DNA from: a bacterium
GTDB lineage: Bacteria; Zhuqueibacterota; QNDG01; JAFGCO01
Assembly: GCA_016932575.1 (NCBI GenBank)
Contig: JAFGCO010000002.1
Span: 62,001-126,000, forward strand
Direction: 5' to 3'
Length of the DNA: 64,000 bases
Position numbers and translations under genes: made by a program. The notes under the pieces are model-generated. The model was not told where the DNA came from. It did not search any database and was given only the letters and a program-made list of their open reading frames with translations. This document shows, piece after piece, positions 6,338 to 23,801 of the stretch (position 1 is its first letter; each line of letters begins with the position of its first letter).

Positions 6338-8491
6338 ATGAAAACATCTAACTTTAATTTCTTGTGCAGTATGTTTTTGATCTGTCTGATTGAAATCAAT
6401 ACGGATATCAATGCGCAAACCTGCTGGTACGTGGATAATGCAGCCATCGGTTTGAACAACGGATCATCCTGGGATAATGCCTGGCCGGGTTTCGCCTATA
6501 TTCAGTGGAACACTGTTCAGCCGGGTGATATCCTGTATATCAGCGGTGGTACAACTGAGAAAACCTATTATGAACGTCTGTCGATCGTAGCCAGCGGAAC
6601 CGAAGAAAATCCAATCATCATCAAAGTCGGTCATGAACCCGGACATGCAGGAAATGTGATCATTACAAATGATGGCCCCCTGGGCGGGATTTCGATTATT
6701 TACCGAGACTATATCACAATAGATGGAAACAGGAATGGAGAAAGAAAACTGATTGTTCAAAATTGCACAGTACCCGGTATAAAAGTATACGGCGCTTATG
6801 GGATCAAATTAAGCCATCTCGAGATCCATCATAATGGAGATGAAGTGGATTGGGATAACAGTGGAATAACGTTTACTGCTACCGGCTATGTTGAACCCAG
6901 ACCGAATCTCGAAATTTGTTATTGCCATATTCATCATAACTGGCAGGACGCTATCTCCGGTTTCGGCCCGATCGCCTCCGGTTTCGGTTATATTTCAATT
7001 CATGACAATGAAATATCCGATGTTGTTGATGACGGATTTGAGTGCGGGTCCGGCGGTGTCGATTTTTATAACAACAGCATGCATGATAGATCTTACGACG
7101 GCGGAGACGGCCATCCGGACGGCGTCGCGTTCAACGGAGCGGAATATTACCGGGTTTATAATAACCGTTTTTACAACTTCAGGCGCGGGACCGCTTATAT
7201 CAATTATGAGCCGTTTTATAATACCAGTCCTCCGTCACCGCGTCCGGGAGATCATGTATACATTTACAATAACCTGATCTATGAAGAGGAAATCATTCCC
7301 ACCGGATTTATCCCTTCCCATTACACATTTTATACACCCAATCCCTACCGGTCCGGCCGGCCGGATGGTATTTATACAGACATTGACAGCGCCAGGGCAT
7401 TATTCCATCACATGATAGAACAGGATTATATTGGTACCGACAGTTATATTCTGGACAATTTTCGCAATTTGCCCGATTATGTCGATATGGAACTGGATCC
7501 AATATATGAAAATCATCAACAAGAAATTTATCAGATTGTCGTGAGTTATGAAGATGTGGGCTCTTCACTTGGAGGAATATCGTTCGGGGGAAGTGATATC
7601 ACAACAACCTATTTATCCGATATTATTATCGCCAACAATGTCATGGTGAATTTGCCGGCAAGGGGATTTGGAATCAGCTGTAATAATCACGACAGCGAGA
7701 ATCTGAACAATATCATCGTTGCGAATAATATTGCGCTTAATTGTTACACAAACGGAGGCGGCATAGCAAGCAGTGTCGGAGGTATATCCGATAATAGTCT
7801 GATCGGATCTTATGGTTCAGATGCAAAAATCGTCTATGACAACAACATCATCTTTCAGGGTAATCAGGGCTGCAGCGCCATGCGTTATAATGATCACTTT
7901 ATTGATCATTATGAGGATTTTGTAACGATATACGGCTTAAACGTTCATGGTGCTAATATCGATCCGTCTCTGAATGGAGACTATAAGCCTTATTCACAAT
8001 CGAGTCCGGCTGTGGACAACGGCATTAATTTAAGCGCGATTTTTACAACCGATATTGATTGTGGTTTAAGACCCTATGGCAGTGGCTGGGACATTGGTGC
8101 GTATGAATTTGGATCATCTCCCGGAAATATTGTCTCCGTAAAAATTAAAGTTTTCATGGAAGGTCCCTTCAATATCGGCTCTATGAATACGGATCTGCAA
8201 ACCGGCGGCCATCTCCCCCTGCAATCCCCTTATGATGACACTGAAGTCTCTGCCATACCGGAAAATGTGGTGGACTGGGTGCAGGTGGAATTGCGGATAA
8301 TGGCGGATGAATCCGGTGATAATTACACCAAAAGTGTCTTTTTAAGAAACGACGGGATGGTTATCGACCAGGACGGATCAGACACCGTATCGATTGAAGC
8401 ACCGGAAGGGGATTATTTTATTGTGGTCAGGCATCGGAATCATCTGACTGTCATGAGCAATGTCGCTATTCATTTAACATCGGAATTGTAG
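6338..8491 (+). CDS. Secreted right-handed beta-helix protein with shared C-terminal module
   Basis: About 717 residues from the ATG at 6338, which gives a clean signal peptide ending near INAQ; a GTG at 6296 in frame would add 14 residues, and neither has a good ribosome site. Next comes the N-terminal block of DUF1565/choice-of-anchor-Q beta-helix proteins (WYVDNAA, SSWDNAWPG, PGDILYISGG). Irregular NN-containing beta-helix coils such as YNNRFYNF and IANNVMVN run to about residue 560. The choice-of-anchor end (CGLRPYGSGWDIGAYEFG) follows at about 580-600. The last 115 residues are the module shared by all eight proteins of this cluster. The fold is that of pectate-lyase-like polysaccharide lyases, epimerases and binding proteins. 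No catalytic residues could be assigned, so activity on a polysaccharide is inferred. First gene of the operon. Confidence 0.8.
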   Translation: MKTSNFNFLCSMFLICLIEINTDINAQTCWYVDNAAIGLNNGSSWDNAWPGFAYIQWNTVQPGDILYISGGTTEKTYYERLSIVASGTEENPIIIKVGHEPGHAGNVIITNDGPLGGISIIYRDYITIDGNRNGERKLIVQNCTVPGIKVYGAYGIKLSHLEIHHNGDEVDWDNSGITFTATGYVEPRPNLEICYCHIHHNWQDAISGFGPIASGFGYISIHDNEISDVVDDGFECGSGGVDFYNNSMHDRSYDGGDGHPDGVAFNGAEYYRVYNNRFYNFRRGTAYINYEPFYNTSPPSPRPGDHVYIYNNLIYEEEIIPTGFIPSHYTFYTPNPYRSGRPDGIYTDIDSARALFHHMIEQDYIGTDSYILDNFRNLPDYVDMELDPIYENHQQEIYQIVVSYEDVGSSLGGISFGGSDITTTYLSDIIIANNVMVNLPARGFGISCNNHDSENLNNIIVANNIALNCYTNGGGIASSVGGISDNSLIGSYGSDAKIVYDNNIIFQGNQGCSAMRYNDHFIDHYEDFVTIYGLNVHGANIDPSLNGDYKPYSQSSPAVDNGINLSAIFTTDIDCGLRPYGSGWDIGAYEFGSSPGNIVSVKIKVFMEGPFNIGSMNTDLQTGGHLPLQSPYDDTEVSAIPENVVDWVQVELRIMADESGDNYTKSVFLRNDGMVIDQDGSDTVSIEAPEGDYFIVVRHRNHLTVMSNVAIHLTSEL
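8195..8460 (+). repeat. C-terminal module DNA, copy near-identical to 17191-17456
   Basis: This stretch encodes most of the C-terminal module of the first secreted protein. By hand alignment it differs from 17191-17456 at about 26 of 266 positions and includes an unbroken identical run of 61 bases. The upstream parts of the two genes are not alike, so the module was copied on its own. Confidence 0.8.
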
Positions 8492-8499
8492 GAAACCAT

Positions 8500-11400
8500 A
8501 TGAAACAGAGATTAAAAATCATGCATAAACTCTTTTTTATCTATTTTCTCATTATCCTGACGGGATTTGGTATCATCGCGCAGGACATTATTCCCGAAGA
8601 CCGTAGAATCGACTGGAATCCCGGCATTCCTGGAGGCATTCCCGGTTATCCTGTGGGGGTGAATGCAGTCGATTTTGGTGCCGTGGGAAACGGCATTATT
8701 GATGATACACAGGCGATTCAGAATGCAATTAACGCCTGTGGTGCCATGGCAGTAACAGCCAGGGCGTCAGATCCAGATGCAGGATATGCAATTTATTTAC
8801 CGGCTGGCACCTATTTAACAACAAACCGTTTGAATCTGAATCACTCTGGAATCGTGCTGCGTGGCGACGGTCCGAATCAAACGAGGATCCAATTTAATTC
8901 AGAAAATACAAGCACTGCGATTATTGGAATTTTTTCGACCGGAGGATCCTATACCCAATATATTAAAAATATTATAGATGGCGCTGTAAAAGGATCGACC
9001 TCAGTTGTTCTGGATGAGGCAACCGGTGTTACAGAAGGCAGCATCTGGCTTTTTGATCAGTTGAATGACGGGGAGATTGTCACTCATATTGGCGGAGGGG
9101 GTGCAGCCACCTGGTGCAGCCGTGAGAATGGTACACGTGCCATGGGGCAAATTGTGCAGATTACTGCAGTCAACGGAAACACTGTTTCTTTTGAACCTCC
9201 ACTCTATCTCGATTTCAACGCCAGTCTGAGTCCCCAGGCCATGAATTTTATCAGAAGGCCCATTTTTAATTCAGGAATCGAAGATCTCTGCATCGAGCAG
9301 ATCGGCAGCAATGCCCGTAACAATCTGACCCTTGAAACAGGTGCTTTCAACTGGATCAGGAATATTGAATCGATCAATTCAAATGAGGACCATGTCAGCT
9401 GTCTGTACAATTACAGAAGCACAATACGGGACAGCTATTTTCATCACGCATCCAGTCATATGGGCGGCCATGGGTATGGTGTCAAATTGGGCCTTACATC
9501 AACTGCCTGTCTTGTGGAAAACAATATCTTTTATTATCTGCGGCATCCATTGATGACCTGCTGGGGCGCGGCTGGTAATGTCGTCGCATATAATTATTCG
9601 GCTTATGTATTTATGCGGTATGAGGACTATGAATGGGCCTGTTCGGATTTAATCGGCAGTCACGGCGCCTATCCGGTCATGAATCTTTTTGAAAGCAACT
9701 GGGGTCAAATGATCGATAATGATTATTACTGGGGCACTTCCGGGTATCAGGTTTATTTCCGTAACCGTTCCGCCGGCTACCAACACAACAAGGAAAACCG
9801 TTTTCTGGCAGTCACATTTGAAAAAGGAAATTTATACGGCAGTGTCATCGGAAATGTATTGGGCGTTCCGGTCGACAACTATCCATCCCTTCCCTATTAT
9901 GAGATTGAAGGAATTGAAACAACCTCTCAGACACCCGCTATCTATCGTCTGGGTTATTTATCGGTCAGTGACGGCGATCCCGACGACAATGATCCCCAGG
10001 TGAAGGCTACACTCCTCCGCCATGGCAACTACGATTTTGTGACAAAACAGGTTTTTTGGGATCCTGAAATTCCGAATCATAATTTACCGACCTCCCTTTA
10101 TTTGCAGTCGAAACCGGGTTTCTTTGGAGAACAATCCTGGCCTTGCATCGGTCCGGATGTATCACCCATGATCAACAAATTGCCGGCTCAATTAAGATTT
10201 GAACAAAACTATCCTGATTCACCCCGGAAGCCATCGAACCTTGTGGCCGAAGCCGTGTCTTCGACTGAGGTCACGCTTACCTGGCAGGATCACGCCATCT
10301 CTGAAATCGGATTTATCATTGAGCGCAGCCCGGATGGGGTGACTTTTCAAGAAATTACAACATTTGCAGGCTTAAATGATAACTATTTAATTCATCATTA
10401 TGTCGATTCCGGATTAAGTGCGAGTACAGCCTATTGCTATCGAATCTGTGCCTATAATGATCATGGCCATTCGGATTACACAAACATCGCCTCAGCGATA
10501 ACGGATGACGGATCATCAGTCGGACCTGTGCTATTCTGCCGGTTCGAAGACAGTATCGCCGATTCAAGTGACCATGCCTATCCGGCACAAGCCAGTGGTG
10601 ATCCGGATTTTACAAACGGAGTCAGCGGACGGGCGATTAATCTGGACGGGGACGGCGATTGTGTGGCCTTCAACTGGGATAATCCGATCGAAGGTTCTGA
10701 TCAGTCATTTACCCTGGCTGCCTGGGTAAATCCCCGGAATATCACGGGCAACCGATGGGTATTCGGAGAACATTACGGATATCGGAATTTTATATTCGGG
10801 CTGAATCAGGGACAGATAACCATCAAATGGCGTTACACCGATCACTCAGGTGAAATCGGAACATACATGCTGAAATCATATGAAAATCTCATCCCCGGCC
10901 AATATCATCATATTGCGGCTGTTTATAACGCGCAATCAAAAACCGTAAGCATGTTTCTTAACGGCTCCCGGATCCGATATGATATTGCTTCCCAGCCATT
11001 CGGTATTCGAAGTGTCAATACACTTTATATCGGTCGGGGAACCGAAATCAATACAGTTGAATATTTTGACGGCAGGATCGATGAAACAAAAATCTATGAT
11101 GTTGCACTTTCTCCTTCAGAAGTTGAAATGCTGGCAATTCTGCAAGTGAATCTTCAGATTAAAATCTTCCTCGAAGGCCCCTACGGTACAGGCAGCATGG
11201 AAACCGGACTGCAGACAGGTGATCATTTGCCCCTGCGGTCTCCCTATGATGATGAAGAAGTAATCTCCTTTCCCGACAATATTGTGGATTGGATGCAGGT
11301 AGAGCTAAGAACCTCGGCAGATGGATCGGGTGACATTTACACAAAAAGCGCTTTTTTAAAAAATGACGGCTGTGTGGTGGATACGGATGGTTCGGACACA

Positions 11401-11505
11401 GTGACAGTCGAAGCACCCGAAGGTAACTATTATATTGTCGTCAGGCATCGAAATCATTTGGCGATTATGAGCAATCAACCCTTCCATTTGAGTTCAAGTT
11501 TATAA
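8500..11505 (+). CDS. Secreted pectate-lyase-superfamily protein with FnIII, LamG and shared C-terminal module
   Basis: 1001 residues. A signal peptide of about 28 residues (ends IIAQ) is followed by DIIPEDRRIDWNPGIPGG, a leader often seen before Pectate_lyase_3 (PF12708) domains. The family signature is at about 50-130: VDFGAVGNGIIDDTQAIQNA, an IYLPAGTYL strand, and LRGDGPNQT. The beta-helix extends to about 560. An FnIII domain lies at about 575-665 (PSNLVAEAVSSTEVTLTWQD). A LamG/concanavalin-like domain lies at about 670-880 (FTLAAWVNP, IYDVALSPSEVE), usually a carbohydrate-binding fold. The shared module occupies about 885-1001. Probable polysaccharide lyase or hydrolase acting outside the cell; substrate not determinable. 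It starts 8 bp after gene one with GGAAACCAT before the ATG. Paralogue at 17675-20602. Confidence 0.85.
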   Translation: MKQRLKIMHKLFFIYFLIILTGFGIIAQDIIPEDRRIDWNPGIPGGIPGYPVGVNAVDFGAVGNGIIDDTQAIQNAINACGAMAVTARASDPDAGYAIYLPAGTYLTTNRLNLNHSGIVLRGDGPNQTRIQFNSENTSTAIIGIFSTGGSYTQYIKNIIDGAVKGSTSVVLDEATGVTEGSIWLFDQLNDGEIVTHIGGGGAATWCSRENGTRAMGQIVQITAVNGNTVSFEPPLYLDFNASLSPQAMNFIRRPIFNSGIEDLCIEQIGSNARNNLTLETGAFNWIRNIESINSNEDHVSCLYNYRSTIRDSYFHHASSHMGGHGYGVKLGLTSTACLVENNIFYYLRHPLMTCWGAAGNVVAYNYSAYVFMRYEDYEWACSDLIGSHGAYPVMNLFESNWGQMIDNDYYWGTSGYQVYFRNRSAGYQHNKENRFLAVTFEKGNLYGSVIGNVLGVPVDNYPSLPYYEIEGIETTSQTPAIYRLGYLSVSDGDPDDNDPQVKATLLRHGNYDFVTKQVFWDPEIPNHNLPTSLYLQSKPGFFGEQSWPCIGPDVSPMINKLPAQLRFEQNYPDSPRKPSNLVAEAVSSTEVTLTWQDHAISEIGFIIERSPDGVTFQEITTFAGLNDNYLIHHYVDSGLSASTAYCYRICAYNDHGHSDYTNIASAITDDGSSVGPVLFCRFEDSIADSSDHAYPAQASGDPDFTNGVSGRAINLDGDGDCVAFNWDNPIEGSDQSFTLAAWVNPRNITGNRWVFGEHYGYRNFIFGLNQGQITIKWRYTDHSGEIGTYMLKSYENLIPGQYHHIAAVYNAQSKTVSMFLNGSRIRYDIASQPFGIRSVNTLYIGRGTEINTVEYFDGRIDETKIYDVALSPSEVEMLAILQVNLQIKIFLEGPYGTGSMETGLQTGDHLPLRSPYDDEEVISFPDNIVDWMQVELRTSADGSGDIYTKSAFLKNDGCVVDTDGSDTVTVEAPEGNYYIVVRHRNHLAIMSNQPFHLSSSL

Positions 11506-11513
11506 GGGAAATA

Positions 11514-14196
11514 TTGATACGATGTCAAAAAACAATTTCGTTGAACTCATGGATCGTCCTTGCAGCATTCCTTCTTGGGTTTCAAATTGTCTTCTCTGGA
11601 TCCGGATTCGTACACATCAATCCGACGGTCGATTTGAGTCACACCAACACCAGTCAATGGCAGACAATCGATGTTTCTGCCGATGTGCCGGCCGGAGCCA
11701 CAGGTGATTCAAGGATACACCAATTATACAGATGTTGATTTTTATCTTGTCGGTTTTACAACAACTTCCGATGCTTCCGCGCCAAATTCTGTCACTGAGG
11801 TGAATGATGGCAACGGTGCCGATATCGATACACATTATATCACCAATTGGATGCAAGTGAACTGGAATGAAGCCGATGATCCTGAAAGCGGTATCGCCCG
11901 ATATTTTTATTCCTTAAGCACAACAGAACAAGACGCAAATATCATCGATTGGACCAATGTGGGATTGAACAAAGAAGTAACAGTCACCGGTCTTGATTTG
12001 ACTGTTGGGACCACCTATTATTTCAACGTAAAAGTTGAAAATACCCAGGGTTCTGAAAGCACGATCACATCATCGGATGGATTTCAAATTATCCAGGATC
12101 CTTCACCGCCCAGCACCGTTGGGCAAGTTCGTGACGGCGCTTCGACAACTTCGGATCAAAGCACAACATATTCGCGATCACAATTATCATTTAATTGGAA
12201 CGCTTCCACTGACAATGAAAGTAAAGTCTTCAGATATATATATGCGGTTGGCACTGCCGAAGGTGCTGCCAATATTGTTGACTGGACCGATAACGGACTC
12301 AATACAAACGTGACGCACACCGGTTTGACATTGATACCGGGAACGAAATACTACGCAGCAGTCAAAGCATTGAACACCCAAAGTATGGAAAGCGAAACTG
12401 TCAATTCAAACGGCATTCTTGTAATCAACGATCTCTCACCGCCTTCGGCCATTGTTGAATTGAGGGATGGGCATGCAACAGACAGCGACATTGCTTACTC
12501 GAATATTGAAATAAGAGCCAATTGGGATGCTGTTGATGATCCGGAAAGTGAAATCACAAATTATTATTATGCGATCGGCACAACCCCGGGGGGGACCGAC
12601 ATTGTGGACTGGACAGATAATGGTCTCTCGACATCAATGGTGCATACTGGATTAATTTTGACTCGCGGTACCACCTATTACACCGGTGTGATCGTTGAAA
12701 ATGAGTCAGGGCTGATGTCCGCCATCACATATTCCGATGGAATCACCATTCAATATTTATGTACGAATGAAGTCGTTGCAAACAGCGGAAGCGCTTTTGA
12801 TATTCAGACAGCGATAAATCAGGTCCATGCTTTAGGCGGAGGGACTGTCCATATTCCTGAAGGTGATTTTGAGTTGTTGAATACAGTCAGTCTATTTTCC
12901 AATATCACGCTCATGGGCGCCGGAATCGGCAAAACAGTGCTTCAGCATGCCGGCAATGCGCATTTTTCCTGTGAAACAGGCGGGCACACAATGATACGAA
13001 TTTCAGGGATATCATTTTATGGCAATCAAATCATCTATTATCGAAGCGTCGTAGATTTCAGAATCGATCACTGCTATTTTAAAGCAAATCAAAACACGTC
13101 GAACTTGATCAATTTGAATAATATGTCGGGCTGTCCGTCGATTCGCGGCGTAGTGGATCACTGCACTTTTTGTGAAACGGATTATACGACAAATTTTTGC
13201 ATTCATTGCGGTCCCAAATATTGGACGGAAGGAGAAAGAGGCATCGAGGTGCTGGGAAGTGCCGAAGCCATATTCATCGAAGACTGTTATTTCGACCACA
13301 TTTACAATCACCCGGTTGGTGCATTTAATGGATCCAACTATGTTGTTCGTCATTGCACATCAATCTGTTGTGGAAGCTGGGACGGACATGGCCCCGGATA
13401 TGAATATATCGACACCCAATATCACGGCACGCGCTGCTATGAATTTTACAACAATCAATTCATCGAGACCGAGGAAAGCTCACAGGGAGAAAGATGGTCC
13501 TCGCTTGGGCTTCGATCCGGCAGTGGTGTTATTTATAACAACACATTCATTTATTTTCGAAATGCTGTGAGATTTACATTGGAACCCGGATCTGTGACAG
13601 CCAGCGGGGGTGAGCATCCCGCTTTTGATCAAATCCATGATATGTGGCTATGGAACAACGACCTGATCGATACGGATGAACTGATCCTATTTGATGGAGC
13701 AAATGCTGCAGATTTCATTCAGGAAAACCGTGATTACTTTCTGCGGTCGCCTTCGCTTGCGCAGGATGGTTTTAAATACATCCCTTACCCATATCCTCAC
13801 TATCTTGTGATCGGAGATCCGGTTTATCAAAATACGGTTCGTCTTAAAGCAAGAGTATACCTGGAGGGAGCTTATCTCAATGGTTTGCAGAACTGTCAAT
13901 TGCATCAATCCGGCCATATTCCCATTAGATCTCCCTATCGAGATACGAGAACCGTTTCAAGTATCCACCCAAATATTGTAGACTGGGTGGAAGTTGAATT
14001 ACGGACGGATCCTTCCATCGCCGGTGAAAAATATCAAAGTGCATTGCTGAGAAATGACGGTCAAATTGTAGACATTGATGGAAGCACCGATTATTTGACG
14101 TTTGATACACCCGATGGATTGTATTACATCGTTGTGCATCATAGGAACCATCTGGCCGTGATCAGCGACAAAGCAGTGCATCTGTCGAATCAATAA
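11514..14196 (+). pseudogene. Secreted FnIII x3 plus beta-helix protein with shared C-terminal module, frameshifted near its N-terminus
   Basis: The signal peptide and first strand (SLNSWIVLAAFLLGFQ to DVSADVPAGATG) lie in the frame starting at TTG 11514. The rest, from VIQGYTNYTDVDFY to the end at 14196, lies in another frame. The join is near 11700-11710, where ACAGGTGATT would become ACAGGTGTGATT if a GT unit were restored, giving the continuous strand PAGATGVIQGY. The start is also doubtful: an ATG at 11522 reaches the signal-peptide frame only if the A6 run were A5. After the break come three FnIII-like repeats of about 105 residues, each with DDPES or DNES and a VDWT/IDWT motif. A beta-helix (QTAINQVHALGGGTVHIPEG) and the shared C-terminal module follow. 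Either a broken gene or two indel errors. Confidence 0.7.
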
Positions 14197-14233
14197 TTTA
14201 TATCGATCCATTTAAATAAAGAAGGGAATGCCT

Positions 14234-15727
14234 ATGAATCACAAAATCAATCGTATCTACATCGTTCTAATCATCACTTTATACATGATGATACACACTG
14301 TACATGCACAGATTATCATCAATCATACCTGCACGGATATCACAGACATTCCGCAATGGGCGATCGAGACAGCAAAAACAGATCTTCATATTGCTTATGC
14401 CCACACATCTCATGGCCGCCAGCCGGTGGAGGGGATGACCTACCTGGTCGATTTTGCAAACAGCAACGGGTCGGGATTATTTCTGCCTTCGGATATTTTT
14501 CAATGGAATGAAGGAGGTGTGGACGATGCTCTGGACCTTCGCAATTACGATGGTGTCCAGCAAAATCCCCGCACACTGGTTCCGGGCGGCGCAAAAGACC
14601 TGGGGAATCCGAATGGTACGCAGTGGGCCATTGATACCCGAACCTATTTAAATGATCCGGCCAACTCGGACATCAATGTCATCATATGGAGCTGGTGCGG
14701 ACAGCTGTCCGGTATATGGGCACACCGGTACGGGTGGCCGGGATGGGAGTCCTGGGATGAAATCAATCACTGTTTCCATCTTTTTGACGACATTGCCTAT
14801 GACATCAGTTCCGGCAGCGATTTACGTCTTCAATTAGAGGATATCGGCAGTTTTGTCGGATACTATCTGCTTCAGATGTCTGAACTTGAGCAGGATTATC
14901 CAGAAGTACGCTTCATCTATATGACGGGCCATCTGGATGGAACCGGTTTGGATGGTATACTCAACAAACATAATGAAATAATCTGCGAATACTGCTGTGA
15001 ATACAATAAGATTCTATATGATTTTGCCGATATTGAAAGCTATGATCCGGATGGAATCGACTTTATATCTCAGTTGGGCGATGATGGTTGCAACTACGAT
15101 GCAAATAATAATGGGATCACGGAAACCAATGGTGCCAGTGCGGCCCTGCCAATCAATGGGGATGCTAACTGGGCCATCGAATGGCAGGATTCACATCTGC
15201 AATTCGATCCGAACCTGGATGAAAATGAGGACGGAATTACCGATTCACAGCCGGATGCAGCATGGTATTACAGCACCTCTGCGCATAGCCAGGCGTTGAA
15301 TGCCAATTTAAAAGCATATGCTTCGTGGTGGCTCTGGGCACGCCTTGCAGGGTGGGACGGAACCATTCCGGTTGCAGTCTCTGTGAAAGTCTTTTTAGAA
15401 GGCCCCTGCAATGCCGGATCCATGGAAACCGGACTGCAAACCGGTGATCATTTGCCCCTTGAATCCCCCTATGATGAGGCGGAAGTATCTGTCATTCCGG
15501 ACAATGTGGTGGACTGGTTGCAGGTGGAATTGCGGACGCTTGCGGATGGATCCGGTGAAAATTATTTAAAAAGCGTTTTCCTGAGAAATGATGGCATGTT
15601 GGTAGATCTGGACGGATCGGACACAATATCTATCAATGCGCCGGAAGGGGATTATTTTATTGTGGTCAGGCATCGGAATCATTTGGCTGTGATGAGTGAT
15701 GGACTTGTTCATTTATCTGAGGAGTGA
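14234..15727 (+). CDS. Secreted protein of unrecognised family (HTSHG type) with shared C-terminal module
   Basis: About 497 residues from the ATG at 14234, which sits six bases after AAGGGA; the ATG at 14228 has no spacing. A signal peptide ends at VHAQ. The central 350 residues belong to no family I can name, but they match the protein at 20639-21937 block by block. The shared blocks are HIAYAHTSHGR, DINVIIWSWCG, RFIYMTGHLDG, ILYDFADIESYDPDG, and AHSQALNANLKAYASWWLWARLAGW. Conserved His, Ser, Asp and Cys residues in short loops after beta strands suggest an SGNH/GDSL-like or other hydrolase fold, for example an esterase removing acyl groups from a glycan. That is a guess. The shared module occupies the last 115 residues. 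The stop overlaps the next start. Confidence 0.7.
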   Translation: MNHKINRIYIVLIITLYMMIHTVHAQIIINHTCTDITDIPQWAIETAKTDLHIAYAHTSHGRQPVEGMTYLVDFANSNGSGLFLPSDIFQWNEGGVDDALDLRNYDGVQQNPRTLVPGGAKDLGNPNGTQWAIDTRTYLNDPANSDINVIIWSWCGQLSGIWAHRYGWPGWESWDEINHCFHLFDDIAYDISSGSDLRLQLEDIGSFVGYYLLQMSELEQDYPEVRFIYMTGHLDGTGLDGILNKHNEIICEYCCEYNKILYDFADIESYDPDGIDFISQLGDDGCNYDANNNGITETNGASAALPINGDANWAIEWQDSHLQFDPNLDENEDGITDSQPDAAWYYSTSAHSQALNANLKAYASWWLWARLAGWDGTIPVAVSVKVFLEGPCNAGSMETGLQTGDHLPLESPYDEAEVSVIPDNVVDWLQVELRTLADGSGENYLKSVFLRNDGMLVDLDGSDTISINAPEGDYFIVVRHRNHLAVMSDGLVHLSEE

Positions 15728-17481
15728 TGAGATTGAATGATCATTTTTTATTAGAAAAAATCCGACACATTCGGATTTTTATTCTCACTGCTTTATTGAT
15801 GATTTCTATCTCTTTGCAGGCGTTTCACTACATTCGTGCTGATGCGACAGGCAATAATGACGGATCAGACTGGAATAATGCATATACAACTTTACCGGCC
15901 GAGCTGGAAAGAGGCGCTACATATTATATATCTGATGGAAATTATGAAAGCTATACATTTGATGACGCGGAAGGTGAAACTCAATATATAAAAATAAAAA
16001 AAGCAATTGAAAGTGATTATGGGACAGACGCTGGTTGGCAGAGTAGTTATGGAGATGGCCAGGCAGTATTTGATATATTGACATTCAGCACATCCTACTG
16101 GATATTTGACGGACAAAAAAGAGATGATTGGGAAAACGGGTATGGTTTTAAGATTAAGCCTGATGAATCTTATCAATTTAATGCTACAAAAGGCATACGG
16201 CTTTCATGGACAGACCATATTACTTTTAGATACATTGAGATAGAACAATTTGGACAACAGCAATTCGAAGTCAAGCAGGAAGGTTTCTATGGTCCAGCTA
16301 CTTCAGAAATATTAATACAATATTCATATGTCCATGATTTTATGGGAAATGGTATATTACTGCATGGAGAGAATAACATAGTTGAATATAGCAAGATTGC
16401 AGATAGTTTTGGATATGGTGGTACCCACTCTCAAGGGATTCAATTATTTTCTAATTCAGTTGTAAATATGACAATTCGATATAATATTTTTCAGGATATG
16501 AGAGGGACTGCTGATATTGCTTCTGCTTGGGGTACTGATGGATTAGATATATATGGCAATATTTTTTATAACACACCTGGTTCTAGTGGTTATACAAGCC
16601 CGGCAGCAATACATGACCTATCCAGTGGTCCAGAGGAGACAGGACTTACAAATGCGCATATTTATAATAATTTATTTTATAGATTCAATGAGGATCATGT
16701 TAATGTAAATCATAATCATGCGGGTGTATTGATTACTTATACAAGCGATCCTTCATCAAATCTTATATACAATAATCTTTTTGTAGATTGCGAAGATGTT
16801 AATTTAGACAGCCACTACAACTCAGATCTTGATATATATTACAGTAATTCTATACATGATTATAACTATTTAATTAATTCTGATTTGGTATGGAATGCTG
16901 ATCCTGAAGTTCATGATTTAATGCTTACTGGACCTGATCCCATAATTGATGCTGATAATGGTGATTTCAGATTAACTGCAAGCGCTCCAGCAATAAACGC
17001 TGGTTTGGATTTAACAACTCTTGCTGGATTTAATCCAGATTCAGTCGATCCTGACCAAAATATTCGTGGTGCTGATGGTTTTTGGGATATCGGCGCCTAT
17101 GAATATGTTTCAGCAGCACCAGACCAAATCGCGTTACAAATCAAAACCTTCCTCGAAGGTCCCTACAATGCCGGAACCATGGACACAGGACTGCAGACCG
17201 ATGGCCATCTGCCCCTGCAATCCCCTTATGACGACACTGAAGTCTCTGCCATACCGGAAAATGTGGTGGACTGGGTGCAGGTGGAATTGCGGACTCATGC
17301 CGATGAATCCGGTGATAATTACACCAAAAGTGTCTTTTTAAGAAATGATGGGATGGTCATCGATCTGGACGGATCAGACACCATATCGGTCGAAGCACCG
17401 GAAGGGGATTACTTTATTGTGGTTAAGCATAGAAATCATCTGAGTGTGATGAGTGACGATCCTGTAAATTTGAATCAGTAA
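15727..17481 (+). CDS. Secreted beta-helix protein with AT-rich core and shared C-terminal module
   Basis: About 584 residues. The ATG at 15727 overlaps the preceding TGA and follows GAGGAG; a GTG at 15724 is the alternative. The signal peptide ends near SLQA. The front has YIRADATGNNDGSDWNNAYTTL, typical of choice-of-anchor-Q beta-helix proteins. Coils rich in YNN follow, then IRGADGFWDIGAYEY at about 450. The shared module follows. The core is clearly more AT-rich than its neighbours: 18 of 60 G+C at 16321-16380 against 30 of 60 at 10561-10620. The module DNA at 17191-17456 has the usual composition and nearly matches 8195-8460, so an acquired front was fused to a resident module. The stop TAA (17479-17481) spans the junction with the inserted MITE-like element. 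Confidence 0.8.
   Translation: MRLNDHFLLEKIRHIRIFILTALLMISISLQAFHYIRADATGNNDGSDWNNAYTTLPAELERGATYYISDGNYESYTFDDAEGETQYIKIKKAIESDYGTDAGWQSSYGDGQAVFDILTFSTSYWIFDGQKRDDWENGYGFKIKPDESYQFNATKGIRLSWTDHITFRYIEIEQFGQQQFEVKQEGFYGPATSEILIQYSYVHDFMGNGILLHGENNIVEYSKIADSFGYGGTHSQGIQLFSNSVVNMTIRYNIFQDMRGTADIASAWGTDGLDIYGNIFYNTPGSSGYTSPAAIHDLSSGPEETGLTNAHIYNNLFYRFNEDHVNVNHNHAGVLITYTSDPSSNLIYNNLFVDCEDVNLDSHYNSDLDIYYSNSIHDYNYLINSDLVWNADPEVHDLMLTGPDPIIDADNGDFRLTASAPAINAGLDLTTLAGFNPDSVDPDQNIRGADGFWDIGAYEYVSAAPDQIALQIKTFLEGPYNAGTMDTGLQTDGHLPLQSPYDDTEVSAIPENVVDWVQVELRTHADESGDNYTKSVFLRNDGMVIDLDGSDTISVEAPEGDYFIVVKHRNHLSVMSDDPVNLNQ
17191..17456 (+). repeat. C-terminal module DNA, copy near-identical to 8195-8460
   Basis: This is the second member of the near-identical pair, about 90% identical by hand count. 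Its G+C content contrasts with the AT-rich DNA immediately upstream, which marks a recombination or gene-conversion boundary near 17130. Confidence 0.8.
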
Positions 17482-17633
17482 CTGAACTTTGGCAAATTAA
17501 ATATTAGGCAAAAGATGTCATTCACGAATGATTTTGTTGGGGAGCTACTACTTCACCCCACACCTGGATTATCGCTTAAAAATTGCGAGGATGACGAAAA
17601 GGAAGGTAAAAATAAAATTTGCCAAAATTCAGT
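17481..17633. mobile_element. MITE-like non-autonomous element with 18-bp terminal inverted repeats and 5-bp target duplication
   Basis: The left end ACTGAACTTTGGCAAATT (17481-17498) is the inverted complement of the right end AATTTGCCAAAATTCAGT (17616-17633) with one mismatch. The 153-bp element is flanked on both sides by CAGTA (17476-17480 and 17634-17638), the signature of transposition with a 5-bp target duplication. It has no open reading frame. It separates two genes of the operon that otherwise lie almost end to end. Removing the element and one CAGTA copy would join the upstream frame to a TGA overlapping the next ATG at 17675, the same ATGA coupling seen elsewhere in this window. 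The transposase that mobilised it is not in the window. Confidence 0.75.
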
Positions 17634-17674
17634 CAGTACAAGACTTTCTCAAATGATTCGATAGGAGCGATTGA

Positions 17675-20602
17675 ATGAAACTCAAAATCTGTATATTCTT
17701 ATTTATAATGATAACGACCCGGACTGTATTTTCTCAGGACATCATTCCAGCGGATCGCAGAATCGACTGGGATCCGGGAATACCCGGTGGCATTCCAGAT
17801 TATCCAGTGGGTGTCAATGTAATGGATTACGGCGCAGCAGGTGATGGGATCACAGATGATTTCCAGGCATTTATGGATGCGATTGATGCCTGTCCGGAAC
17901 AGAATGCGGTTTTTATCCCGTCCGGCACCTATTTGATATCCGGGCGGGTGGACATTCGTAAATCCGTTGCTTTACGCGGTGCAGGTCCGGATGCGACTTT
18001 TTTGAAATTTGAAAAACAACCCGGGGCTTTGGAACATCAAAGAACCAATATCTGGATCGGGCAAAGGCTTCTTGGATTTTCGAGTCTGGTCACAAACGGA
18101 TGTATCAAAGGCTCATATCAAATTACCGTGGATGATGCCTCCGGATTTGCGATCAATGACCTTGTTGAAATCCGTCAGGACAATGATGAATCAATCATGG
18201 CCCGTCCCATTGTACCGCCCTCTGAAAATGATAGCTGGGCCGAGGATCATTGGGGATGGCGGGCGGTTGGACAATTCCTTTTAATTACAGATATTGATGA
18301 ATCTTCAAACATTCTCACTTTTCACCATCCCCTCTATTTCAACTACAATCTCTTCATGAATCCTGAGTTGACCAAGCGACTCAATACAACATGGAATGCG
18401 GGTGTTGAAGATCTCCATATCGAACTTGTGGTGGATGCGAACGGTTACTACGGTAATATACATCTGGATGGAAGTGTGTACTGCTGGGTAAAAAATGTGC
18501 GTGGCTATAAATGTTCAAGATCCCATATTGGTATTTGGGGTGGGCTGGGAAATGAGATAAGGGAATGCTACTTTGAATACAGTCACGGATATGCCGGCGG
18601 TCAGGGCTATGCGGTGAATTTGATTGACCGTGCCTCCGATAATTTAATTGAAAACAATATTTTTGACTATTTGCAGGGCAAGATGATGACCGCAGTGGGT
18701 GTATGCGGTAATGTGTATGCATACAATTACGGGCGTGTGACATTGGATGACCTGGGCGATTATGAGGATATGCATGCGGATCTGTCCGCGCACGGCCATC
18801 ATGCGAATATGAATCTGTTTGAGGGGAATTCGTGTAACAGGGCGCATGTCGATACCTACTGGGGAAGCAATGCGAACTATATATTTTTAAGAAACAAAAT
18901 GCTTTGCCCTGATGGATATATTCGAAGCAGCGTGCCTGTCGGCATTGAAAAAAACAATCCGGAGATGACTTTTATTGCAAATGTCCTGCATCATGAAAAT
19001 TCACTGGAAGACCGGATTGTATGGGTATTTCCGGATGATCCGGATGATTTCAGCGATCCGGATCTGACCATGAGCACCCTGATTTGTCATGGAAATTATG
19101 ATTACATGAGTGAGAACGTACAGTGGGATCCAGATATTGAAAATCATGATATTCCGGATTCGTATTATCTGGACAGCAAACCCGATTTTTTCACGAACGC
19201 GCCCTGGGGCGATACGCCCTGGCCCAATATTGGCCCGGATCTGCTGCATGCCCGTATTCTGCCCGCCCAGCAAAGATTTTGCGATCTAAACGGGATCACG
19301 CCTCCGTCTCCACCTTCCGGCTTATCTGCGGTGGCGTTAAACAATCAAATCACTTTGAATTGGTCAGATAACAGTCATGATGAACAGGGATTCCGTATCG
19401 AACAAAGTATGGATGGGAATCATTTCAGTCGCATCGCGGTCACGATGGCCGATTCTTCTCATTATACAGTCACCGGACTTACACCCTGGACAACTTACAC
19501 TTATCGTGTTTGCAGTTTTAATGACATCCCTGGAAATTCTGTTTATTCCAATACCGCTTCCGCGACCACACAAGAAGCGGTTCCATTAGAACTGACCGCC
19601 TGGTTTCCTTATAACGGCGATGCGAATGATGCCAGTTCCAATGATTATCATGGTGAAGTTCATGGTGCTGTTTTATCTTCAGGACATTCCAGCCAGTCTT
19701 ATTCATTTGACGGGCTCGATGATTACATAGAATCACCCGGATGGGATCCGGATGGCTGGGGACCGATCACGTCTCCGGTCCATGGGGATAACCAGGCGTT
19801 TACGGTAACAGCCTGGATCAACCCTGCTGATGCCGACAAAAACAACTGGGTGTTGAGCGATAATTCCACATGGGGAGATTTTGTATTTGGTGTTCATGAT
19901 TCCCGACCGTTTATCCGATATTTCTGCAATCTTATCGAAGGAGGATATCAGAGATATATGCTGGAAGCGGTCGAAACAGCAACTGTGGAAACTGGTGTTT
20001 TTACACACATTGCCGCGAGCTACGATCCATTGAACAATATTGTCCGATTGTATTTAAATGGACAACAAGTCGCGATCGACAGGGTGAATCACCCTCTCGG
20101 TCCTGTCAGTTTCGATCATCTCTTTGTCGGATGCGGAGGATATTCAACCGGTGTGATCGAATATTTTGAGGGGATGATTGATGACGTACGGATCTATGCC
20201 TCGACATTATCTCAGACACAGATTCAAAGCCTGGCTGAGACTGATGTAAAGCTTCAGATTAAAATATTTTTAGAAGGACCGTACCATTCAGGAACGATGG
20301 GAACCGATCTGCAGACAGGCGGCCATATCCCCCTGCAATCTCCGTACGACGCCACCACCCTCTCTTCGATTCCCGCGGATGTTGTGGACTGGGTATTGGT
20401 TGAAATTCGGTCACACGCGGACGGATCCGGAGACAATTACAGCCAGAGCGCGTTCGTCAGACAGGATGGCATGGTTTTGGATATAAACGGATCCGAATAT
20501 CTTTCCATGACAGCGCCGGAAGGCAATTATTATATCACAATCCGGCATCGTAATCATTTATCGGTGATGAGCGATGTTCCGGTATTTCTCAGTGCGAACT
20601 GA
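17675..20602 (+). CDS. Secreted pectate-lyase-superfamily protein with FnIII, LamG and shared C-terminal module
   Basis: 975 residues, the paralogue of the protein at 8500-11505 with the same domain order. The signal peptide is about 21 residues (ends VFSQ), followed by DIIPADRRIDWDPGIPGG. PF12708-type signatures are MDYGAAGDGITDDFQAFMDA, FIPSGTYLISG and LRGAGPDAT. The beta-helix runs to about 540, FnIII lies at about 548-640 (PPSGLSAVALNNQITLNWSD) and LamG at about 645-855 (FTVTAWINPA, DDVRIYASTLSQTQI). The shared module follows to the end. Start ATG after GGAGCGATTGA. Two diverged copies of the same architecture in one operon suggest action on related linkages or on different regions of one polymer. 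Probably extracellular; substrate unknown. Confidence 0.85.
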   Translation: MKLKICIFLFIMITTRTVFSQDIIPADRRIDWDPGIPGGIPDYPVGVNVMDYGAAGDGITDDFQAFMDAIDACPEQNAVFIPSGTYLISGRVDIRKSVALRGAGPDATFLKFEKQPGALEHQRTNIWIGQRLLGFSSLVTNGCIKGSYQITVDDASGFAINDLVEIRQDNDESIMARPIVPPSENDSWAEDHWGWRAVGQFLLITDIDESSNILTFHHPLYFNYNLFMNPELTKRLNTTWNAGVEDLHIELVVDANGYYGNIHLDGSVYCWVKNVRGYKCSRSHIGIWGGLGNEIRECYFEYSHGYAGGQGYAVNLIDRASDNLIENNIFDYLQGKMMTAVGVCGNVYAYNYGRVTLDDLGDYEDMHADLSAHGHHANMNLFEGNSCNRAHVDTYWGSNANYIFLRNKMLCPDGYIRSSVPVGIEKNNPEMTFIANVLHHENSLEDRIVWVFPDDPDDFSDPDLTMSTLICHGNYDYMSENVQWDPDIENHDIPDSYYLDSKPDFFTNAPWGDTPWPNIGPDLLHARILPAQQRFCDLNGITPPSPPSGLSAVALNNQITLNWSDNSHDEQGFRIEQSMDGNHFSRIAVTMADSSHYTVTGLTPWTTYTYRVCSFNDIPGNSVYSNTASATTQEAVPLELTAWFPYNGDANDASSNDYHGEVHGAVLSSGHSSQSYSFDGLDDYIESPGWDPDGWGPITSPVHGDNQAFTVTAWINPADADKNNWVLSDNSTWGDFVFGVHDSRPFIRYFCNLIEGGYQRYMLEAVETATVETGVFTHIAASYDPLNNIVRLYLNGQQVAIDRVNHPLGPVSFDHLFVGCGGYSTGVIEYFEGMIDDVRIYASTLSQTQIQSLAETDVKLQIKIFLEGPYHSGTMGTDLQTGGHIPLQSPYDATTLSSIPADVVDWVLVEIRSHADGSGDNYSQSAFVRQDGMVLDINGSEYLSMTAPEGNYYITIRHRNHLSVMSDVPVFLSAN

Positions 20603-20638
20603 ACTAAAAATCATCTGTTCAAAAAAGGGGGTTATGCA

Positions 20639-21937
20639 TTGAAAGTAATCGAAACTGTCAAAATACGAAAATACTACAGATTTTTCTTGTTATTCTGTAT
20701 GGCCATGCCCGGAGCCTGTAATTTATATGCACAAATCATCATTGACCACACATGCACGGATATCAATAAAATTCCTGTCTCTGCTATTGAATCGGCCAAG
20801 GATAGCTTGCATATTGCATATGATCATACCTCTCATGGCAGTCAGCTTATTACCGGGATGAATCCACTGGACACCTTTATGGGAGGCCATGGCATTTATG
20901 TATGGAGTGAAGGCGGCGGATCCGGTTTGCTTGATATTGACGATTATTTCAGTCCGGTCAAAGATCTTGGATATGAAACCAGCTGGCCGCCGGCCACCCG
21001 AACGTATCTGGAGAACCCGACCAACGCCGATGTTAATGTGATCATGTGGTCCTGGTGCAATATCTACGGCCATAATATTCAGGGTTATCTGGACAGCATG
21101 GAAGTGCTGATCAGTGATTACGGGCCAGGTGGGACAAAAATCCTGGACGGCACCCGGACCGTACCGGTTACCTTTGTTTTCATGACCGGTCATACAAATA
21201 TGGAAATCAGTCAAAATGAATGGACATTCAATGCCAACAAGCAGATCCGGCAGCATTGCATTGCAAACAACCGGGTATTGTATGATTTCTTTGATATTGA
21301 AAATTATAATCCGGACGGGACTTATTTTGGAGACGGAGATCCTAATACAGCGGATTATGGAACCTATAACGGAAATAATCATCTGGATGATGACTGTTCC
21401 TATGACTCTACAGAAACATCAAGGGGCAACTGGGCGATCGCATGGCAAAGTACCCATTCGCAAGGAGTGGACTGGTATTCCTGTTCTGCGGTCCATTCAC
21501 AGCCGTTAAACGGGAATTTAAAAGCCTATGCCTGCTGGTGGATGTTTGCAAGGCTTGCGGGCTGGATCGGCCCCGACACGGTTTCGGTAAAAATCAAAGT
21601 CTTTTTAGAGGGTCCGTACAACAATGGAACCATGAATACAGATTTGCAGACTGCCGGATATCTGCCTCTGGAATCCCCTTATGATACCACCACTGTCTCC
21701 ACCATTCCTGCGGATGTTGTGGACTGGGTGCAGGTAGAATTGCGCTCAGAAGCGGATGGATCCGGGGACAATTACACAAAAAGTGCATTTTTAAGAAACG
21801 ACGGAATGATTTTGGACGGGGACGGATCGGAAACCATCGCATTCAATGCCCCGGAAAATGATTATTTCATTGCTGTGAAACACCGGAATCATCTGTCGAT
21901 CATGAGTGATAGTGCAGTACTCCTTGAAAAACAATAA
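20639..21937 (+). CDS. Secreted protein of unrecognised family (HTSHG type) with shared C-terminal module, second copy
   Basis: 432 residues from a TTG start at 20639, seven bases after an AAGGGGG ribosome site; the ATG at 20634 meets a stop at once. The signal peptide ends near LYAQ. The central domain matches the protein at 14234-15727 in the same order: IIIDHTCTDINKIP, HIAYDHTSHGSQ, DVNVIMWSWCN, FVFMTGHTNM, VLYDFFDIENYNPDG, VHSQPLNGNLKAYACWWMFARLAGW. It is shorter because the loops between blocks are reduced. The two copies are diverged, so the duplication is older than the module exchange noted at 8195 and 17191. The shared module covers the last 115 residues. An enzymatic role, perhaps esterase-like, is speculation. 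Confidence 0.7.
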   Translation: MKVIETVKIRKYYRFFLLFCMAMPGACNLYAQIIIDHTCTDINKIPVSAIESAKDSLHIAYDHTSHGSQLITGMNPLDTFMGGHGIYVWSEGGGSGLLDIDDYFSPVKDLGYETSWPPATRTYLENPTNADVNVIMWSWCNIYGHNIQGYLDSMEVLISDYGPGGTKILDGTRTVPVTFVFMTGHTNMEISQNEWTFNANKQIRQHCIANNRVLYDFFDIENYNPDGTYFGDGDPNTADYGTYNGNNHLDDDCSYDSTETSRGNWAIAWQSTHSQGVDWYSCSAVHSQPLNGNLKAYACWWMFARLAGWIGPDTVSVKIKVFLEGPYNNGTMNTDLQTAGYLPLESPYDTTTVSTIPADVVDWVQVELRSEADGSGDNYTKSAFLRNDGMILDGDGSETIAFNAPENDYFIAVKHRNHLSIMSDSAVLLEKQ

Positions 21938-21947
21938 TTAAATTCCT

Positions 21948-23801
21948 ATGAGTATTTATTCAGTAAAAATCAACCTGTATCAGTGTATTGCCCTTTTATT
22001 TTTAAGCCTATTTTCACCGGTGATGGCAGCGCTTTATTATGTGGATCTGAATCACCCCAATGCCTCTGATACAAATCCCGGAAACGATCCAGGTGCACCC
22101 TGGGAAACCATTCAAAAAGCCGGCAATACCGCAATGGCAGAGGATACTGTCTATATTAGATCGGGAACCTATAATGAACGAATCATACCTCAGTATTCGG
22201 GCCTGCCGGATCAATTCATCACGTTTATGGCCTATCCTGGGGATTTACCTGTATTGGATGGTACCGGACTTGGAGGCTGGTGGGGTATTTTCAGCATTTA
22301 TGGAAAAGACTGGATTCGTCTTGAGGATTTGGAGATTCGAAGTAACGACACAGGCTGGGGCATTTTGATTGAACATGACGGCAGTGAAGACGCTTCACAC
22401 ATTCAATTACAAAATCTGACTGTGCATTATACAGCAGGAGAATGCATACAAATCAGGGGAAATGCTCATGATATCACAATAACCGATTGTACGGTCCATG
22501 ACGGTTTGGGACCCTATTCCGGCATAGATATATATCGCTGGAACAGCGGACGACCCCATCATGTTACAGTCACAGGCTGTACTGCTTATCTTTTTGATAA
22601 TGGATACCCGGGAGCCGGTATTGGAAGTGAAATGGCTGATGACTTAATTGTAACCGGCAATACAGTCTACAACAGCAAAATCGGCATTGATATTGGAAGC
22701 GGAGACCGGAACATCATCACAGATAATATTATTTATGACTGTGAAACCGGCATAGCACTAAGCTCCAATGAAGATTCGGAGGTTAGCCATAATCTGGTTC
22801 ACGATATTATTGATGAAGGATTTTACAGTTATTACTGGAGTGCCAACGGAGAGGCTCATGCCAGGAATGTCTGGCATGACAATGTGGTTTATAATATCGG
22901 CTGGGGCTTCTATGAAAGCAATGTCAAGGGCAGCAGCGGCAGTGAGGGGCCAACGAGCCATCACCGCTATTACAACAATCTGCTCTACAATATCACTCGC
23001 GGATTCTATTTTAAAGGCACCACAGACCTGAAATTCTGGAACAATACCGTGTACATGAATCATGGCTACAGTGCCGTTCAATTGGTGGATGGCGCCATCA
23101 ATGCAGATATTCGTAACAACATATTGAGTACCAGCGGCAGTGTTTCACCAATCTCAATTGATGGAACATCAGGCACTGGCGCCAATATCGATTATAACTG
23201 CTATCACAATCGTTCCGGCACCTCAGGTGGTCCTGGATCCCATTCTGTATCGGGAAATCCGCTATTTATTTCACCCGCTTCTTCAGATTTCCATTTACAG
23301 CCTGAATCACCGTGCATTAATTCCGGAATCAATTTTTCTGCACTTTTTGTTCATGATCTGGACACGCTTCCACGTCCGATCGGTTCAGAATGGGATATGG
23401 GGTGCTATGAATATGCCTCGCCTTATGTTCTGATCTCAATGAAAATTTTTCTTGAAGGACCTTATCTTTCCGGAATCATGTCAACAGATCTGAGCACACA
23501 GGATTATATACCAACAACATCACCCTACAGTGAAGATCCAAGAGAAGCCTCTGCCATTCCAAACGATATTGTCGACTGGGTACTGATTCAACTCCGAACA
23601 GATATAGAGGGTCCGGTGATTTTGTCAAAAAGTGTTTTTTTGAAAAATGACGGAAATCTTGTGTCTGATGATGGTCTGACATCTGAAATCATTTTAAATG
23701 TACCTGAAGGTGATTATTTCATTGTGGTGAAGCATCGTAACCATTTACCGGTCATTACACCTGAAGCGGTTCATTTAAACGCATCAGAAGTCAGCCTGTA
23801 A
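21948..23801 (+). CDS. Secreted DUF1565-type beta-helix protein with shared C-terminal module
   Basis: 617 residues with a signal peptide ending near PVMA. The N-terminal YYVDLNHPNASDTNPG, APWETIQKAG, EDTVYIRSGTYNE series is the DUF1565/right-handed beta-helix entry block. Coils with NN turns (YNNLLYNI, FWNNTVYM, RNNILST) run to about 430, and the choice-of-anchor-Q end PRPIGSEWDMGCYEYA lies near 490. The C-terminal module is present in its most diverged form, with SPYSEDPREASAIPNDIVDW and a few extra terminal residues (ASEVSL). It starts 10 bp after the previous gene with a weak ribosome site. It is the last gene of the row and converges on the sensor kinase 32 bp away. No terminator is visible between them. 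Confidence 0.8.
   Translation: MSIYSVKINLYQCIALLFLSLFSPVMAALYYVDLNHPNASDTNPGNDPGAPWETIQKAGNTAMAEDTVYIRSGTYNERIIPQYSGLPDQFITFMAYPGDLPVLDGTGLGGWWGIFSIYGKDWIRLEDLEIRSNDTGWGILIEHDGSEDASHIQLQNLTVHYTAGECIQIRGNAHDITITDCTVHDGLGPYSGIDIYRWNSGRPHHVTVTGCTAYLFDNGYPGAGIGSEMADDLIVTGNTVYNSKIGIDIGSGDRNIITDNIIYDCETGIALSSNEDSEVSHNLVHDIIDEGFYSYYWSANGEAHARNVWHDNVVYNIGWGFYESNVKGSSGSEGPTSHHRYYNNLLYNITRGFYFKGTTDLKFWNNTVYMNHGYSAVQLVDGAINADIRNNILSTSGSVSPISIDGTSGTGANIDYNCYHNRSGTSGGPGSHSVSGNPLFISPASSDFHLQPESPCINSGINFSALFVHDLDTLPRPIGSEWDMGCYEYASPYVLISMKIFLEGPYLSGIMSTDLSTQDYIPTTSPYSEDPREASAIPNDIVDWVLIQLRTDIEGPVILSKSVFLKNDGNLVSDDGLTSEIILNVPEGDYFIVVKHRNHLPVITPEAVHLNASEVSL

Follow-up and report, generated by a model that had tools for sequence, protein, structure and literature searches.

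The closest described systems to the one reported here are QMITE1 and QMITE2 of Coxiella burnetii, short non-autonomous elements with inverted ends that overlap the 3' ends of genes (kdgK, ubiB and a glutamate transporter gene) by 1–3 bp, and in the same organism one MITE alters the C-terminus of EnhC (PMC5896051). Small repeats fused with reading frames have been described in other bacteria, and Correia/NEMIS, RUP and other small mobile repeats share with our element a length of <200 bp, inverted ends, a target duplication, a position beside genes and a possible transcribed hairpin (PMC2229807); RUP ends, however, are IS630-type with TA targets, and those of our element are of another type. 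Like QMITE1 and QMITE2 it is short, non-autonomous and bounded by inverted ends, and it shares a stop codon with a gene, but its ends and interior differ from theirs and it is present in a single copy. It resembles the IS701 family (and the related IS4 superfamily) in its wide distribution and in that the same ends adjoin an above-cut-off IS701 transposase in another genome. IS701 elements, in contrast, are reported to make target duplications of exactly 4 bp (PMC2266710), whereas our element has a 5-bp duplication, its relatives have 4–6 bp at the same boundary, and no IS701-type transposase lies within its 153 bp. Because of the first difference we file it only as having ends of a kind that an IS701-like transposase uses, and because of the last the MITE itself is not filed as IS701. 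The element is real, well supported and ordinary in kind, and the type of event is already known.

The element occupies positions 17481–17633 of a 64-kb stretch of bacterial DNA (the window, whose numbering is used throughout unless a contig is named; its genome is G000), and the features at this locus are as follows:

15724–17481, + strand: upstream gene, a predicted secreted right-handed beta-helix protein (PF13229) with a C-terminal HRNHL-type domain
17476–17480, no strand: left target-site duplication, CAGTA
17481–17498, + strand: left terminal inverted repeat, ACTGAACTTTGGCAAATT, from reading of the sequence and an inverted-repeat scan
17516–17595, + strand: interior double-hairpin repeat, GTCATTC...CCCC...CTGGATTnnnGC...GCnnGnATGAC; contig C7 of the same genome has the same unit without the ends
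17616–17633, - strand: right terminal inverted repeat, AATTTGCCAAAATTCAGT, with one mismatch against the left end
17634–17638, no strand: right target-site duplication, CAGTA
17675–20602, + strand: downstream gene, with pectate-lyase-like, fn3, laminin-G-like and HRNHL domains, from a domain search

An initial annotation had described 18-bp inverted ends with one mismatch around a 153-bp span and an exact CAGTA duplication, and these proved correct to the base: the ends pair at 17 of 18 positions and the two CAGTA copies are identical. When the whole 64 kb was scanned for inverted repeats that span 80–400 bp and pair at 17 or more of 18 positions, this one alone was returned, and it also bears the duplication. 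The boundary can equally be drawn with a 6-bp duplication, TCAGTA, which takes in the final T of the right-hand repeat. There is no open reading frame of 60 or more amino acids inside the 153 bp.

The 18-bp end was found at 10 sites in the element's own genome at ≤1 mismatch, two of which are the window element's own ends, and the reversed control pattern was found at none. One complete sibling lies at C22:15108–15326; it is 219 bp long and is flanked by an exact ATATA duplication. Further copies, all of the 219-bp type, run into contig ends (C11, C12, C15, C42 and C43), as is expected of a repeat that short-read assembly is unable to cross, and the copies examined sit mostly between larger open frames. 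The window copy and these siblings have the ends alone in common; its 153-bp interior is single-copy in the genome in combination with such ends.

The initial annotation had also proposed that the ends be sought in relatives, and they recur there too: 9 of 59 genomes of the phylum, including the element's own, carry the end at ≤1 mismatch. A scan with ACTGWASTTTGGCAAATTT, which covered ~85,000 species genomes, gave 54 stretches of public contigs from bacteria and archaea, among them candidate division KSB1, Magasanikbacteria, Armatimonadetes, Edwardsbacteria, Hadesarchaea, Freyarchaeota and Bathyarchaeota. Some single matches are likely due to chance. Many of the matches pair up as short elements of 125–244 bp, and most paired copies elsewhere have 4–6 bp duplications at the same ACTG...CAGT boundary. 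A 370-bp element with the same ends and a different interior is also present at L116:6377–6746, in a Thaumarchaeota MAG contig.

Transposases beside such ends were found in other genomes, but none was detected in the element's own. An open reading frame ~100 bp past the end on a Hadesarchaea MAG contig (L106) matches the NCBIfam IS701 transposase at 207 bits (cut-off 150 bits) and matches Pfam DDE_5 too. Fragments of IS701-type transposases lie beside ACTGTAGTTTGGCAAA-type ends at two places (L160 and L191) in the relative G035, and in G042 a 1562-bp element has its transposase inside the related ends ACTGTAGTTTTGCAC. Searches of the element's own assembled genome by Pfam DDE_5, the L106 protein and NCBIfam IS701 detected no such transposase, though the assembly is interrupted where such ends occur; the cognate enzyme may have been lost or may lie in an assembly gap.

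Could these 153 bp instead be a transcription terminator or an RNA-processing hairpin at an operon joint, and not a mobile element at all? An RNA of these 153 nt has a calculated folding energy of -37.9 kcal/mol, which is more stable than that of shuffled sequences (z -3.5), mostly by virtue of the pairing of its two ends. Against this, no terminator-like site was found at the element, on which ground the terminator was rejected, and an Rfam search at the site gave zero matches; in addition, the duplication is exact, the ends recur at unrelated sites, and duplicated sites accompany them at C22 and in other genomes. We therefore regard such an RNA structure as a very improbable account of the locus, even if the element may have a secondary effect on the mRNA. 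The initial annotation had considered that a lack of any second copy together with a conserved terminator at this site would speak against mobility; what we find is recurrence of the ends and no terminator. Its interpretation as a MITE is supported by those recurring ends, by an intact 219-bp sibling that is itself flanked by a 5-bp duplication, by the ends in relatives and by the linked transposase type.

What the two ends enclose matches a repeat of the host genome. Positions 17564–17595 (CTGGATTATCGCTTAAAAATTGCGAGGATGAC) belong to a double-hairpin repeat for which the pattern CTGGATTNNNGCN{4,9}GCNNGNATGAC gives 42 matches across 14 genomes from the order and phylum (reversed control, 0), six of them in the element's own genome. 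That search pattern did not cover the interior's left half, which aligns over 44 bp with sequence upstream of the C7 repeat copy (score 45; 0 of 2000 shuffles equalled it), and no ends of this kind are present near the C7 copy. The element's interior is one unit of the CTGGATT...GAATGAC double-hairpin type, and unlike the other five copies read in its genome (CTGGATT...ATGAC), which have no such ends nearby, it is enclosed by transposon ends. These repeats probably resemble dRS3/REP-type repeats. G010 has a single match of the pattern, which falls within a 192-bp MITE of that genome; the left halves of the G010 and window interiors show no significant alignment, so it is the pattern half alone that links the two elements.

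Because the interior matches a genomic repeat that is found elsewhere without ends, the window element is, on the present sequence comparisons, composite, with IS701-like ends that enclose a genomic double-hairpin repeat, and as far as can be seen the interior is not a transposase remnant. Many MITEs in general are thought to arise by internal deletion (PMC5896051), and the element could by analogy derive from a complete insertion sequence through such a deletion, with an interior of residual IS sequence; the C7 alignment and the same repeat type inside the G010 MITE make this origin unlikely.

We thus read the element as a non-autonomous MITE with IS701-like ends and a host double-hairpin repeat as its interior that inserted at the end of a beta-helix gene, and we put the probability of this reading at roughly 85%. 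Several points count against it: the assembled genome has no detected IS701 or DDE_5 transposase, the interior occurs with these ends only once in that genome, the duplication is 5 bp where IS701 proper is reported to have 4, and no empty site is seen, the relatives compared all lying outside the genus and family. Its ends would be recognised in trans by a DDE transposase, probably related to IS701/IS4, and between them the host repeat would be carried in place of a deleted transposase. By inserting at the end of the secreted beta-helix gene and duplicating 5 bp there, the element would have joined the TA of the target to its own first A as TAA, and placed ~158 bp between two genes that probably overlapped or were nearly adjacent before. 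The upstream protein would be left with a C-terminus of normal length, wherever its ancestral stop may have been, and translation of the second gene would now depend on its own ribosome-binding site, probably with loss of translational coupling.

The stop codon is indeed composed as the initial annotation had stated: the TAA of the upstream gene (17479–17481) takes its TA from the duplication and its last A from the first position of the element. When the flanks are rejoined by removal of the element and one CAGTA, the frame runs on as ...NLNQ-YKTFSNDSIGAIE-stop, and the 13 extra codons and the overlap of the closing TGA (17676–17678) with the next ATG at 17675, as ATGA, agree with that earlier description. 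From these joined flanks it could be argued that the insertion (of the same mobile element) truly cut 13 residues off the upstream protein and broke a coupling by ATGA overlap. The upstream and downstream genes, however, both end in the HRNHL-type domain and are members of a cluster of such genes, and in 16 other genes of the same genome that end with this domain the tail after HRNHL is 11–17 residues long. The present upstream tail is 12 residues and that of the joined-flank version would be 25. Relatives are of little use for this comparison, as the domains read there mostly run on into a dockerin-like extension; the best long counterpart of the upstream gene among them has 32% identity over part of its length, no full-length counterpart was present among the relatives searched, and a search of a plasmid collection with the protein gave no match.

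The earlier claim that the insertion set the present C-terminus is not borne out by these tails: judged against its paralogues the present end is of normal length, and it is the supposed pre-insertion end that would be odd. If the C at 17639 arose from A or G by a single substitution, the ancestral codon that followed CAG would have been TAA or TAG, a stop in the usual position, and this base has been under no coding constraint ever since the insertion. Given the paralogue tails, a stop that was kept at its old place, with a later change at 17639, is at least as likely as one that was moved; a true shortening of the protein we consider possible but doubtful.

The surer effect of the insertion is a widening of the gene joint by about 158 bp, since genes elsewhere in the cluster are closely spaced (they overlap at 15724–15727 and stand 31 bp apart after 14196 and 10 bp apart after 21937). 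Uncoupling of the two genes follows soundly if the flanks are unchanged, and a ribosome-binding-like site, AGGAGC, is still intact 5' of the downstream ATG. The cluster as a whole extends over 8491–23801 of the window, and eight or more of its genes encode secreted proteins (beta-helix, lyase-like and others) with a shared C-terminal HRNHL-type domain of ~120 residues; the dockerin-like extension into which this domain often continues in relatives is absent from it.

The locus shows clearly, in a single case, how a small transposon can enter a tightly packed cluster of genes at small cost, with a stop codon that the target duplication and the element's first base form together. One transposon end type, ACTGWASTTTGGCAAATT, is common to KSB1 bacteria, candidate-phylum bacteria and several archaea, and lies beside an IS701-family transposase in one archaeal genome; annotators can therefore use it to recognise elements in MAGs, whose contigs are often broken by elements with these ends. 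A broader idea, which we hold to be improbable at present, is that lineage-spanning MITEs with IS701-like ends mobilise host double-hairpin repeats as cargo (the window and 192-bp G010 elements) and that their ACTG ends favour the ends of genes as insertion sites, a TAA stop being re-formed there with the first A. If true, insertion at stop codons would be nearly harmless.

Three minor observations were made elsewhere in the same genome. A lone end-like sequence, ACTGAACTTTGGCCAATC, with no partner end seen, lies at L039:500–517 (contig C20), 3 bases past the stop of another HRNHL-domain gene (TAGATAACTGAAC...), and is either a remnant of a second gene-end insertion or chance. The 3' part of a group II intron (Rfam RF00029, 55 bits) at L013:817–1056 (C20:55816–56055) is near a copy of the end of the 219-bp MITE that lacks the remainder of the element, and the intron may have entered that MITE. 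Finally, several copies of a 20-mer with AAGGTAACCTT/AAGGTTACCTT are spread across 9 kb at C65:55198–64198 (L095, L097, L098, L100 and L102), and this 20-mer also occurs twice within the 219-bp MITE.
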